This document shows positions 13,068 through 26,887 of a stretch of 44,884 nt of DNA, one piece after another. The notes under the pieces are model-generated. The model did not search any database. It saw nothing but the letters and a program-made list of their open reading frames with translations, and was not told where the DNA came from. The DNA is from Merismopedia glauca CCAP 1448/3 (GTDB lineage: Bacteria > Cyanobacteriota > Cyanobacteriia > Cyanobacteriales > CCAP-1448): positions 1 to 44,884 of the forward strand of contig NZ_PVWJ01000030.1 in assembly GCF_003003775.1 (NCBI RefSeq). Reading direction: 5' to 3'. Numbering within the stretch: position 1 is the first letter of the stretch; each line of letters begins with the position of its first letter. Made by a program: the position numbers and the translations under genes.

Positions 13068-13240
13068 ATGAAGGTAATGAGAGTTACCGAAGGTGGGAAT
13101 CCGAACATAAGGTAATTTTAGAGTTAGAAACAGCGATAGAGCCAGAATATCGCCAACGAATGGAGGGGGATCGTGTAATTGAAGAATTTATCGATGGTGC
13201 TGGCATTAAGGAACTATTGTTTAAGAAAAATCGTCTATAG
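13068..13240 (+). pseudogene. small hypothetical gene with a one-base frameshift at codon 2
   Basis: GGGAG (13057-13061) stands six bases before ATG 13068, but that frame stops after 15 codons. The neighbouring frame is open from 13055 to the TAG at 13240 and looks coding: YRRWESEHKVILELETAI, then EPEYRQRMEGDRVIEEFID. It has no start codon of its own before the ATG at 13160. Restoring one base right after ATGAA would join the start to this frame and give a 57-residue protein. So either the gene was recently broken or there is a sequencing error. I do not recognise the family. Its end overlaps the convergent gene by 20 bases. Confidence 0.5.
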
Positions 13241-13790
13241 CGTAACGGGCTATAGCTAAACTCAAGCGTGCCTTTTCAATTTCGGATAATTCAATCCAAG
13301 GAGTTTCGTTAATTCTGGGAACCAAACTTTCAATCGAGACAACTTCATCCCGCATACTATAAGCTAACGGGCGGGCTAATACCAATAAATCTTCTGTTCC
13401 CCAATGAGGTAAAAGTTCGGCAACGCATTCGACTAATTGATCCGCCAAAGAAACATTAGCTGCTGTTACCGCCTTAGCTTTCTGAGCAATAATCTCTAAC
13501 CAACCTTGAGGAACTAAATTAGCAAACCTTTGACTTACAGATTCTTTGGCTGTAGGAAAGCAGTTATCGAGTTGAGAAAAAAATCGATTTGATCGCAGTT
13601 CGATTTCATCTTCCGACCATTCTTCCCACTGAAACTCTGTATCTACATCACCAAAGTATGCTTCTGCTGGTGCTGTTTCCCAAGGATATATCTCTGCTTC
13701 TCTCTCTAAAAGCATTTCTAGCATTTCTGCTTGAGTTTGCGCCCATCTATCGTCAGCGCTATTAAAAGAAATTGATTTGTGTGCCATCAT
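13221..13790 (-). CDS. conserved hypothetical acidic protein
   Basis: 189 residues, soluble and strongly acidic in the first half (FQWEEWSEDEIEL), with no signal peptide or membrane segment. The second half is helical, with LVECVAELLPHWGTEDLLVLARPLA and a final SEIEKARLSLAIARYAI. I do not recognise a domain. The N-terminus doubles ATG (MMAHKS). It lies 259 bases downstream of the CHAT-FHA gene on the same strand and could be a distant part of its transcript, but the gap contains a repeat array and nothing shows a functional link. Confidence 0.6.
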   Translation of the reverse strand: MMAHKSISFNSADDRWAQTQAEMLEMLLEREAEIYPWETAPAEAYFGDVDTEFQWEEWSEDEIELRSNRFFSQLDNCFPTAKESVSQRFANLVPQGWLEIIAQKAKAVTAANVSLADQLVECVAELLPHWGTEDLLVLARPLAYSMRDEVVSIESLVPRINETPWIELSEIEKARLSLAIARYAIDDFS

Positions 13791-14019: not shown

Positions 14020-14047
14020 TGACTTCTGACTTCTGACTTCTGACTTC
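14020..14047. repeat. tandem heptamer repeat TGACTTC, 4 copies
   Basis: Four exact units end two bases before the last codon of the CHAT-FHA gene (stop at 14050). It is the same unit as in the bioB tail. The rest of the gap 13791-14019 holds no recognisable gene. Confidence 0.95.
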
Positions 14048-14049
14048 GT

Positions 14050-15714
14050 TTAACCTGATTCTGTAGTTGGGTAGTCATATGTGATGAATTCTAGCGTCTG
14101 ACCTTGGGTACTACCGAACTTTAATTTGGTTCCTGAAGGTAAGGGAACTTCTTGATTGTTGATTTTTTGCCATCCCCTTTCACTCCAAATAAAGGTGCCA
14201 AACCGAGAGAAATCACGGAGATAATAGAGTGATTCTGGCCCATATTCCCGATAAATAATTTCTGCGTGTTCTTGAGAAACCCATTGTTCGTTAGAGATGA
14301 CTACATCATTTGTATCATTACGAACCCGACCCAGCCTAATCCTTCCTTGACGAACTGCCCAAACTGTATTGGTTCCGTCTGTAGAACGCAAACAAGCATC
14401 AGGAATTCTGTTGGTATTAGTAATAGGTTTAATCGGTAAAACCGTCGGTATTTCCGTAATCCTATTAGTTTCAGGTTTCTCTTCTTGCCGAGTTGGATTT
14501 TTCACCAATTCCCCATCAAATTCTGGGTGCATATACAAAACTGGTAAAGTCCAAGCTGGCTGGTTGAATTTATAAAGAGTCAGTAGTTGTTGTCTAGCTA
14601 TAGCTACAGCTTGATCGATGGGCATTCTTTCGCGCAAAGCTTGAGCAAATGTTTGAATAAAGCTTAACGCCTCTTCATCAGCGATAGAGTCCCGCATCCC
14701 TAAAACGGCTGGGACTCCATGATGAATCAAAACTTCCGCTAAACTACTACGGGGGATCGCTTTTTGCCGTTCTTCATCTGGTTGCGCTCCCCAACAGGCA
14801 TTGAGGACGGCTAATTTAACCTGGCAACTCACTAAAGCTTGGGCTAGTTCAGTGCCGTTAATTGTGGCATCAGGGCTTAAATAGAGTAAACCACCATCAG
14901 GAGCGGTAGTTCCATGACCTGCATAGAATAAAACATTATATTTTTTAGTATTTAAGGCATTGAGTAACTCGGCTCGACTCGGTTGCAGTAAAGGTTCTAC
15001 CCTACAGGGAACTAGGTTGGGAGAAATGTAGCTAGGTAAACCTAAATCTGATTGGCTTTGTAAAATCCCTGATAATGCGGTAGCTTCTTTTTGCAGTTTT
15101 AATTTGGCAGTCAAACCAGAGTTGGAGTCAATATCTTTGCCCAAAACTAAGAGTACATTTAACGCCAAATCGGAAGTAGATAGCTTCAGCGACTCCACAT
15201 CACTGGTAGTGCGGCTAAACAAAATTTGGGGCGCTAGGGAAATTGCTGGCGTTCCTGCTTGTTCTTGCATTATTTCCCAAGGAAGGGGAATTAAGTCAGG
15301 ATCGCGAATTTCCAAACGCAGGCGCAATGGTTGATTTTTTCCACTGGCAAAACCTCTACTTTGGGCTAGACAGTTTTGAATCACGCCTGTAAATAGCCAT
15401 TGCCACAAGTTAATCCCCAAAGTCTGCATCAAGCGACTAGTATAAGGTAATTGTTCCCCAGCACTAGAATTTGGGTTTGGGGGGAATGTTGCGGCTGATT
15501 GGGTGACGTGATGGACAAATGGGACGTGGGGTAAACCTCGCGATTTGAACATTTGTTGCCAATGCACCCAGTTTTGAGTCAATGCTTCTGACCAGTTACA
15601 GTCATAGAGGACGTGACCGCCAAGGAAAGGGGCTTTAACTACCCGAATGGCAAAGTTATCTGCCCCAATTTGTAGGCGATCGATTGCTAACCAGAGGCAG
15701 GGATTTTCAGACAT
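14050..15714 (-). CDS. CHAT-domain caspase-like protein fused to an FHA domain
   Basis: 554 residues, soluble. The CHAT protease domain covers about residues 125-395. Its catalytic pair is visible as His267 in VLFYAGHGTT and Cys307 in LAVLNACWGA, and HHGVPAVLGMRDSI follows as in the family. After a linker rich in Pro, Thr and Ile (400-440) comes an FHA domain (about 450-545) with its phosphothreonine-binding residues: GR in RLGRVRND, S-x-x-H in VSQEHAEI, and RFGTF. CHAT proteins are caspase relatives used in bacterial regulated proteolysis. The FHA half predicts recruitment to a Thr-phosphorylated partner. The substrate is unknown. The first 120 residues match no domain I recognise. ATG 15714. 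Confidence 0.9.
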   Translation of the reverse strand: MSENPCLWLAIDRLQIGADNFAIRVVKAPFLGGHVLYDCNWSEALTQNWVHWQQMFKSRGLPHVPFVHHVTQSAATFPPNPNSSAGEQLPYTSRLMQTLGINLWQWLFTGVIQNCLAQSRGFASGKNQPLRLRLEIRDPDLIPLPWEIMQEQAGTPAISLAPQILFSRTTSDVESLKLSTSDLALNVLLVLGKDIDSNSGLTAKLKLQKEATALSGILQSQSDLGLPSYISPNLVPCRVEPLLQPSRAELLNALNTKKYNVLFYAGHGTTAPDGGLLYLSPDATINGTELAQALVSCQVKLAVLNACWGAQPDEERQKAIPRSSLAEVLIHHGVPAVLGMRDSIADEEALSFIQTFAQALRERMPIDQAVAIARQQLLTLYKFNQPAWTLPVLYMHPEFDGELVKNPTRQEEKPETNRITEIPTVLPIKPITNTNRIPDACLRSTDGTNTVWAVRQGRIRLGRVRNDTNDVVISNEQWVSQEHAEIIYREYGPESLYYLRDFSRFGTFIWSERGWQKINNQEVPLPSGTKLKFGSTQGQTLEFITYDYPTTESG

Positions 15715-25171: not shown

Positions 25172-26887
25172 ATGCAACTTTGGCAACCCAATCAATCAAT
25201 TCAAAATGGTAAATACATCATTGAAAAACCGATTGGAAGTGGCGGATTTGGGATTACTTACAAAGCCAGAGACACCTATTTAGATCGATTAGTCGCCATC
25301 AAAACCCTCAACCCCCAGCGACAACTAGAAGCGACTTTTGCCACAGAACACCAGAAATTTGTCACCGAAGCCCAACGTTTAGCCAGATGTCCTCATCGCT
25401 ATATCGTACCCATATATGACCTGATTCAAGAATCAGGGTTGTATGGGATGGTGATGGAATATGTAGCTGGAGAAGATTTAGCCAGTCATATCGAAAATCG
25501 GGGCGTGTTTCCTGAAGCAGAAGCTATAGCTATTATCGAGCAAGTTGGTGAAGCCCTGCAATTTATCCATGATGAGATTAGATTACTGCATCGAGATATC
25601 AAGCCCCATAACATTATTTTACGCCCTAATACCAAATTACCAGTCTTAATCGATTTTGGACTAGCCCGTGAATTTGAGTTAGGTAAATCTCTCAGTTTGA
25701 CAGATCAGAAAACTCCTGGCTATGCACCCCCAGAGCAATACGATAAACGGGGTAAATTTGGGGCTTATACAGATGTTTACGCTTTATCTGCCACTCTATA
25801 CGTTTTATTAACTGGAAAGCCGCCGTTACCAGCGATTTATCGAGATCAAGTGCCTTTAGCCGAACCCAAGCAGCACAACCCGAAAATTAGTGACAGGGTG
25901 AATCAAGCAATTATGAAGGGGATGGAATTATTACCCCAAAAGCGCCCTCAGTCAGTTAAAGAATGGTTGGATTTGCTAGGTAAACCTACTACTAAACAAT
26001 CCGATTCAAATGCAGTTGTTTTAAAAACATTTCAATTTGAGGTAGTGACTTTAAAAGTTGAAAAAAGAGGATTATTTGGTATCAATACTGCTTTAGTGCA
26101 GTCTAAAACCACCAAGCAAGCAGAATACTTTACTGAAGACTTGGGTGGAGGGATAACCCTAGACATGGTATCGATACCTGGTGGTACATTTATGATGGGT
26201 TCGCCAGCAGGTGAAGGATATGATCATGAGAAGCCGCAGCATCAAGTTACTATTTCACCCTTCTTCATGGGCAAATTTACCGTGACTCAGGCACAATGGC
26301 AAGCTGTAGCCAAATTCACCAAAATTGACCGCGATCTCAAACCAGACCCCTCATGGTTTAAAGGAGCCAATAGACCTGTAGAATCGGTATCTTGGGACGA
26401 TGCAATGGAATTTTGCGCTAGGTTATCTCGCCATACAGGGCAAAGCTATCGTCTACCTAGCGAAGCGGAATGGGAATATGCCTGTCGTGCGGGAACTACA
26501 ACACCATTCCATGTTGGGGAAACGATAACCACAGATTTAGCTAATTATAGAGGTGAGGATACATATGGTTCGGAACCAAAAGGAATTTATCGAAAACAAA
26601 CAACATATGTAGGTACGTTTCCAGCTAATGCATTTGGTTTGTACGATATGCATGGCAATGTGAACGAATGGTGTGCTGACGCTTTGCATAAAAATTACGA
26701 TGGTGCGCCAACAGATGGCAAAGCTTGGGGAAATGGCGAAAATATGGCTATTTCTGTGTTGCGGGGCGGTTCTTGGTACTTCTCTCCTAATGGCTGTCGT
26801 TCCGGTTGCCGTGGCAGTAATGAGCGCGACAACGGCTACAGTCAACTCGGTTTTCGCGTTGTATTCGTTCCTGGCAGGATTTTTTAG
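25172..26887 (+). CDS. Ser/Thr protein kinase fused to an FGE/SUMF1-like domain
   Basis: 571 residues. Hanks-type kinase at about 15-265: glycine loop GSGGFGITYKA, Lys44 in VAIKTL, HRDIKPHN (Asp142), DFG (161-163) and the APPEQYD activation segment. After a linker of some 55 residues the C-terminal half is a formylglycine-generating-enzyme/C-type-lectin fold: MVSIPGGTFMMGSP, TQAQWQAVA, RPVESVSWDDAMEFC, YRLPSEAEWEYACRAGT, HGNVNEWCAD and GFRVV. The paired active-site cysteines of true FGE are not at their place (the region reads NGCRSGCRGSNERD), so this half is likely a binding module or EgtB-like remnant. There is no membrane segment. Kinase-FGE fusions recur in cyanobacteria. Confidence 0.93.
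   Translation: MQLWQPNQSIQNGKYIIEKPIGSGGFGITYKARDTYLDRLVAIKTLNPQRQLEATFATEHQKFVTEAQRLARCPHRYIVPIYDLIQESGLYGMVMEYVAGEDLASHIENRGVFPEAEAIAIIEQVGEALQFIHDEIRLLHRDIKPHNIILRPNTKLPVLIDFGLAREFELGKSLSLTDQKTPGYAPPEQYDKRGKFGAYTDVYALSATLYVLLTGKPPLPAIYRDQVPLAEPKQHNPKISDRVNQAIMKGMELLPQKRPQSVKEWLDLLGKPTTKQSDSNAVVLKTFQFEVVTLKVEKRGLFGINTALVQSKTTKQAEYFTEDLGGGITLDMVSIPGGTFMMGSPAGEGYDHEKPQHQVTISPFFMGKFTVTQAQWQAVAKFTKIDRDLKPDPSWFKGANRPVESVSWDDAMEFCARLSRHTGQSYRLPSEAEWEYACRAGTTTPFHVGETITTDLANYRGEDTYGSEPKGIYRKQTTYVGTFPANAFGLYDMHGNVNEWCADALHKNYDGAPTDGKAWGNGENMAISVLRGGSWYFSPNGCRSGCRGSNERDNGYSQLGFRVVFVPGRIF

Follow-up and report, generated by a model that had tools for sequence, protein, structure and literature searches.

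A CHAT-FHA protease of Merismopedia glauca, paralogous to HetF and inherited with a PatU-like partner: a candidate second switch of the HetF-PatU-HetZ type

What might a predicted caspase-like protease joined to an FHA domain do in a cyanobacterium, and which protein would it cut? The question is raised by a minus-strand gene in a 44,884-nucleotide stretch of DNA from Merismopedia glauca CCAP 1448/3 (contig NZ_PVWJ01000030.1), referred to below as the window. An earlier note, made from the letters of the window alone, had proposed that the gene encodes a CHAT protease fused to a phosphothreonine-reading FHA domain and acting in an undescribed signalling or death pathway. The features on which the analysis turned were as follows:

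14050..15714, minus strand: CHAT-FHA protease gene, by sequence a HetF paralogue; a single intact 554-aa ORF with exactly these coordinates
15442..15714, minus strand: N-terminal module, residues 1-91, conserved across 140 orthologues
14500..15441, minus strand: HetF-like CHAT domain, residues 92-405 (Pfam CHAT, NCBIfam HetF and fold match)
14914..14916, minus strand: codon of the predicted catalytic His267 (140/140 orthologues; aligned with His in 20/20 HetF sequences)
14794..14796, minus strand: codon of the predicted catalytic Cys307 (140/140 orthologues; aligned with Cys in 20/20 HetF sequences)
14446..14457, minus strand: linker motif Thr420-x-x-Pro423 (TEIP), a candidate phosphothreonine site
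14065..14406, minus strand: FHA domain, residues 437-550, with the pocket Asn replaced by Phe
13221..13790, minus strand: partner gene, 189 aa, YPW motif at residues 35-37, by profile comparison a PatU homologue

The proposed fusion was borne out, as both domains of the ORF scored above their Pfam cut-offs: CHAT (PF12770) at residues 101-382 with E 8.8e-23 (81.6 bits, cut-off 24) and FHA (PF00498) at residues 460-534 with E 4.2e-9 (37.2 bits, cut-off 20.7). The predicted catalytic residues lie where they had been placed, His267 within AGHGT and Cys307 within NACWG, and both were invariant in an alignment of 140 distinct orthologues, with no loss of the pair among these homologues. An AlphaFold model of the protein (mean pLDDT 73.4, pTM 0.49, residues 149-175 of low confidence) was similar in fold searches to SAVED-CHAT 8tl0 over residues 181-404 (Z 18.0, rmsd 3.0, 182 aligned) and to many FHA domains over residues about 436-550 (Z about 13 to 15). 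The CHAT part of the model also resembled residues 765-991 of the transmembrane anti-sigma factor DdvA (8rw5 and 8rot, Z 13.8 and 13.6). Searching the PDB by sequence with CHAT-FHA returned FHA domains and no CHAT protease match; rows for UL130 and ribosomal L30 in the same search were taken as chance. A strong match to the protein (E 1.4e-84 or better) was obtained in 87 of 386 cyanobacterial genomes, which indicates that CHAT-FHA is more than a chance fusion. Just past its stop codon, at 14020-14049 of the window, a 7-base unit occurs four times in tandem and opens the gap between the CHAT-FHA and partner genes. A promoter and terminator scan was given no weight (4 promoter-like sites against 8.0 expected and 6 terminator-like sites against 4.1).

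HetF is a divisome and differentiation protease of Anabaena; in filamentous cyanobacteria it governs how cells divide and specialise, and PatU and HetZ likewise have roles in cell division and differentiation. The NCBIfam model of HetF (NF045509) matched CHAT-FHA at residues 92-414 (E 1.9e-50), the 172 bits covering the CHAT part only and falling short of the 1200-bit cut-off for full-length HetF. The N-terminal 120 residues, which had been regarded as unknown, accordingly shrink to about 91, HetF-like sequence beginning at about residue 92. This shorter module, whose predicted structure comprises three strands, one helix and a tail of low confidence, keeps W49, W52 and F56 in at least 99% of the 140 orthologues and is absent from the aligned HetF sequences.

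CHAT-FHA and HetF are alike in their CHAT domains, which are about 34% identical, and in their aligned His/Cys pair, found in all 20 HetF sequences compared (all from the best-matching family, f6). They differ in that CHAT-FHA carries an FHA domain where HetF has its C-terminal transmembrane and TPR parts, and in the extra N-terminal module of ~91 residues. Within the M. glauca genome, which gave 18 CHAT hits in total, the HetF model matched two places only, namely the CHAT domain of CHAT-FHA and a separate protein resembling the C-terminal half of HetF, so that this search yielded no HetF that includes a protease domain. The second, stand-alone protein (contig C34, L159:1234-2346) is without a protease domain and shows, by eye, a membrane-like segment. 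A FastTree tree was built from 10 of the 20 HetF sequences (all of family f6), CHAT-FHA and 8 other CHAT domains, taken from the 18 hits in the genome; it set these 8 apart from CHAT-FHA plus HetF, the split having a local support of 1.000. Judged by its sequence, the CHAT half of the protein is a paralogue of HetF, and not HetF itself.

This kinship bears on the pathway that had been proposed. Its signalling half is supported; nothing was found that points to death. The specific ties to HetF, PatU and HetZ count against a cell-death or anti-phage protease comparable to the CRISPR-linked CHAT proteases, a reading that we consider highly improbable. Its CHAT fold is indeed shared with SAVED-CHAT and Csx29 (Z 18.0 and 13.3), and PADLOC, run on this protein, gave a weak match to BovA (E 0.0017, 15.5 bits). 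However, CHAT-FHA has no SAVED or CRISPR part and has other partners, those recurrent neighbours to which a name could be given (e.g. ndhM and peptide deformylase) are not defence genes, and strong matches to the protein number about one per genome, their distribution being patchy, though family-wide.

Gene neighbourhoods extending 6 kb from CHAT-FHA were compared at 121 loci, which fall into 51 groups when sorted at about 72% identity, some of the contigs being short. A gene for a protein of ~200 aa, here called the partner, was present at 94 of these loci (34 groups), downstream in 91 and upstream in three, and lay within 400 bp in 90; at the remaining 27 loci it was not found near CHAT-FHA. 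Standard searches with the partner encoded in the window gave nothing within E 0.1 in Pfam and a single chance-like match in NCBIfam (E 0.1), and its relatives yielded scattered weak Pfam matches (best DUF3090, E 0.0019, in 2 of 45). The model of the partner is all-helical (mean pLDDT 81.6) and had no PDB match at E<=0.001 in a fold search; a PDB search by sequence produced weak matches only, the best being a designed helical bundle (E 0.00075).

A profile of the partner did, in two genomes, weakly match one gene (E 1.9e-4 and 5.4e-4), and HetZ adjoins it in the one genome that was read. PatU sequences, named by their position beside HetZ (NF037963, 657 bits), were collected from 65 loci, with HetZ adjacent in 62. 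Alignment of the two families with hhalign gave a probability of 93.2% (E 3e-7 for a single comparison) over 140 columns at 21% identity. When 1604 ORFs were searched at E<=0.01, the partner model recovered 29 of the 65 PatU sequences, the PatU model recovered 40 of the 94 partners, and neither picked up HetZ or any other ORF outside the two families; in control searches none of 220 and 225 shuffles reached 1e-3. From these profile comparisons the partner is homologous to PatU. The homology with PatU/PatU3 extends over ~140 columns and includes the [YF]PW motif, whereas the partner is the shorter protein and adjoins CHAT-FHA, not a HetZ gene. A number of f6 genomes have a PatU match with stops, in keeping with the division into patU5 and patU3 that has been described for Anabaena (PMC12288457, excerpt). 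In the open-access literature searched, neither a CHAT-FHA protein nor any kinship of the partner with PatU was described, and the CHAT-FHA system is apparently undescribed.

The inheritance of these genes was followed across the 386 genomes as raw genome counts, in which kinship was considered only by noting mixed families. CHAT-FHA and the partner occurred together in 86 genomes, CHAT-FHA alone in 1, the partner alone in 3 and neither in 296. The corresponding figures for HetF and PatU were 76 with both, 1 and 1 with either alone and 308 with neither, and those for CHAT-FHA and HetF 73 with both, 14 with CHAT-FHA alone, 4 with HetF alone and 295 with neither. Like HetF, CHAT-FHA is co-inherited with a PatU-type protein, the partner being present in 86 of its 87 genomes. 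Both pairs were found in 72 genomes, the new pair only in 12 (M. glauca included) and the HetF-PatU pair only in three, so the two pairs separate as units; the 12 genomes with the new pair only have neither PatU nor a HetF with protease domain. In some genomes with both genes of the new pair, such as G143, G312 and G211, the partner is distant or on another contig. Three genomes (G005, G123 and G207) have the partner without CHAT-FHA, and in two the genes that normally flank CHAT-FHA are in place: at L220 (G005) and L221 (G207) the partner is kept and CHAT-FHA is gone from between otherwise conserved neighbours, apparently by loss. Either the partner can stand alone in these genomes, or the losses of CHAT-FHA are recent.

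The third member of the putative set is a HetZ-family protein. M. glauca encodes a single one, HetZ-related protein 2 (NF037965), which scored 568 bits over a cut-off of 400 and is the only HetZ-family match of the genome, but lies on a contig other than that of CHAT-FHA. A search of 50 genomes with the related model NF037964, in which a low-scoring HetZ-family protein was counted, found this kind of protein in 21 of 21 genomes with CHAT-FHA and/or the partner, in 0 of 3 with HetF-PatU only and in 0 of 26 with neither, these 29 negatives being those of NF037964 only. Of the sequences from the 21 genomes, all 15 examined (15/15) were identified as NF037965, and each of 14 further genomes that have both pairs (14/14) encodes the protein over cut-off. 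Taken together, HetZ-related protein 2 was present in 35 of 35 genomes with either gene of the new pair and in 0 of 29 without, among 64 genomes that were chosen and not random. No function for it was seen in the literature searched.

Could the three genes be mere clade markers with no shared function? They are concentrated in the same orders, as such an explanation would have it, but we judge it very improbable. The genes of the new pair are present or absent jointly even inside families: f5 comprises 8 genomes with both, 1 with CHAT-FHA only and 8 with neither, the partner being far away or on another contig in several, and f10 has 1 genome with both and 2 with neither. Linkage of CHAT-FHA and partner at 94 of the 121 loci and the separation of two homologous pairs as units also speak against it, as does the contrasting behaviour of a neighbour, the FHA-PrsW protease, which was also found where the pair is not, in families f24, f25 and f29.

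The paralogy with HetF, the invariant catalytic pair, the homology of the partner with PatU and the co-inheritance of three genes together argue for a second switch of the HetF-PatU-HetZ type. In the known system, PatU3 is reported to be a cleavage substrate of HetF and to limit HetZ (PMC12288457, excerpt). By analogy, CHAT-FHA would be an active caspase-like (CHAT) cysteine protease in which the FHA domain takes the place of the HetF membrane anchor and TPR parts, and its main substrate would be the PatU-like partner encoded downstream. As in HetF-PatU3-HetZ, the partner would restrain a DNA-binding regulator of the HetZ family, HetZ-related protein 2 being the most likely one; cleavage of the partner would release this regulator, and the FHA domain would gate the protease. 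We consider this reading probable on balance; in it we infer protease activity, the partner as substrate, regulator binding, phosphobinding and the direction of the switch.

The same tight co-inheritance would suit a complex equally well, and the partner might instead be a subunit, adaptor or inhibitor of CHAT-FHA, with the true substrates elsewhere, for example in the divisome, as may hold for HetF. The helical model of the partner is consistent with such a role, and FtsI is an interaction partner of HetF (PMC8406250, excerpt). Nevertheless, the homologue of the partner in the sister system, PatU3, is a reported substrate, and HetF and PatU share this pattern of co-inheritance, so that we regard a non-substrate partner as unlikely and retain the partner as the presumed target of cleavage.

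How the putative protease would be controlled depends on its FHA domain, whose binding residues had all been thought present. Three of them are: Arg463, Ser480 and His483 occur in the window protein and in 128, 138 and 136 of the 140 orthologues, respectively, and all three occur in 124 of the 139 orthologues whose sequence extends this far. The fourth is not, as the Asn position of the NGT motif is Phe505 in the window protein and mostly aromatic in its relatives (Tyr in 91, Phe in 31, Trp in 5 and Asn in 11 of the 140). Arg463 is lost in 11 of the 139 orthologues reaching it, where it is replaced by Ser, Met or Phe. In the FHA domain of DgcB, the equivalent pocket Asn (N97) bonds the bound peptide (PMC6733907, excerpt). 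The pocket of CHAT-FHA is, going by its residues, atypical.

These replacements would be expected if the FHA domain had become a docking domain that no longer reads phosphothreonine, the protease being controlled by partner binding or by expression alone. We hold this to be doubtful, given that 124 of 139 orthologues retain all three of Arg, Ser and His and that a gene for a PP2C phosphatase is the commonest upstream neighbour found. We prefer an FHA domain that reads phosphothreonine and thereby steers or gates the protease, possibly through a threonine of CHAT-FHA itself, in cis or on a neighbouring subunit. A Thr-x-x-Pro motif lies between CHAT and FHA in 139 of 140 orthologues, at the exact aligned columns in 138, and is surrounded in the window protein (residues 409-429) by a stretch with pLDDT <50; the linker outside Thr420-x-x-Pro423 is mostly variable and of low confidence. 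No conserved T-x-x-P was seen at the matching place in the 20 HetF sequences. DgcB offers a precedent: the Thr that its FHA domain recognises lies in the tail of the same protein and the residue at +3 is important, as is also the case in GarA and OdhI (PMC6733907, excerpt). CHAT-FHA resembles these proteins in having an FHA domain beside a conserved Thr in a low-confidence stretch, and differs in that its effector is a protease, its motif is in a linker and its pocket Asn is replaced. Thr420-x-x-Pro is a candidate phosphothreonine site. The link of the motif to FHA reading is weakened by its persistence in orthologues without Arg463, and since the motif keeps a constant spacing from CHAT, 15 residues long in 124 of 139, it may be structural.

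The neighbourhood survey that had been recommended for CHAT-FHA genes did reveal a conserved phospho-signalling neighbour, which was a phosphatase and not a kinase. A PP2C phosphatase gene was found at 55 of the 121 loci (28 groups), upstream in 50, and its product would oppose the phosphothreonine signal. It is absent from the M. glauca locus, where a glycosyltransferase gene occupies the place often held by the phosphatase, and was not found within 6 kb at 66 of the 121 loci, some of them on short contigs. The best PP2C relative elsewhere in the genome (contig C118, 50% identity) adjoins a kinase. In Anabaena, prpJ is all1731, and a prpJ mutant is without the major heterocyst glycolipid (PMC6161253, excerpt). 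By gene order, the upstream phosphatase in Anabaena may be PrpJ and CHAT-FHA may be all1730 of Anabaena PCC 7120, which we offer as a guess. The gene all1729 appears in the filament table of PMC2821919 (excerpt) and was later dropped from the core by its authors.

A Hanks-type kinase 10 kb away had been put forward as support for control by phosphorylation. The window does encode such a kinase, fused to an FGE-sulfatase domain (25172-26887, plus strand). The genome has 53 Pkinase matches, 52 of them over cut-off, and any given gene would therefore be expected to have a kinase within 10 kb in about 20% of cases; with the window kinase domain as BLAST query, a kinase-like ORF was found at only 4 of 120 orthologue loci, with flanks of up to 8 kb. 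The proximity is that of a chance neighbour and no evidence, and the link was rejected. Another recurrent neighbour combines an FHA domain with a PrsW-type intramembrane protease and was seen at 37 of the 121 loci (18 groups; L042:10895-12289 and 36 others), nearly always on the opposite strand, with a copy in M. glauca at C16:10027-11466. The NGT motif is present in the four FHA-PrsW sequences compared. This protein is wider in range than CHAT-FHA, and an obligate place for it in the system was rejected. NdhM and peptide deformylase genes were found at 35 (16 groups) and 20 (12 groups) of the 121 loci, respectively.

HetF, PatU3 and HetZ have been studied mainly for their part in heterocyst formation. 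The genes hetZ and patU also occur in heterocyst-less cyanobacteria, where they have been suggested to act more generally (PMC2821919 and PMC11298460, excerpts). A complete second HetF-PatU-HetZ circuit, gated by threonine phosphorylation and with a PrpJ-type PP2C phosphatase as its off-switch, is a tentative proposal to which we give somewhat less than even credence. If it were true, the new circuit may serve cyanobacteria that have no HetF circuit at all, as the 12 of 386 genomes with the new pair only suggest. A parallel and separable set would mean that a module of protease, inhibitor and regulator was duplicated as a unit. PrpJ-type phosphatases, which have been linked to heterocyst maturation, would gain a candidate pathway, and through this set caspase-like proteolysis in bacteria would be linked to threonine phosphorylation.
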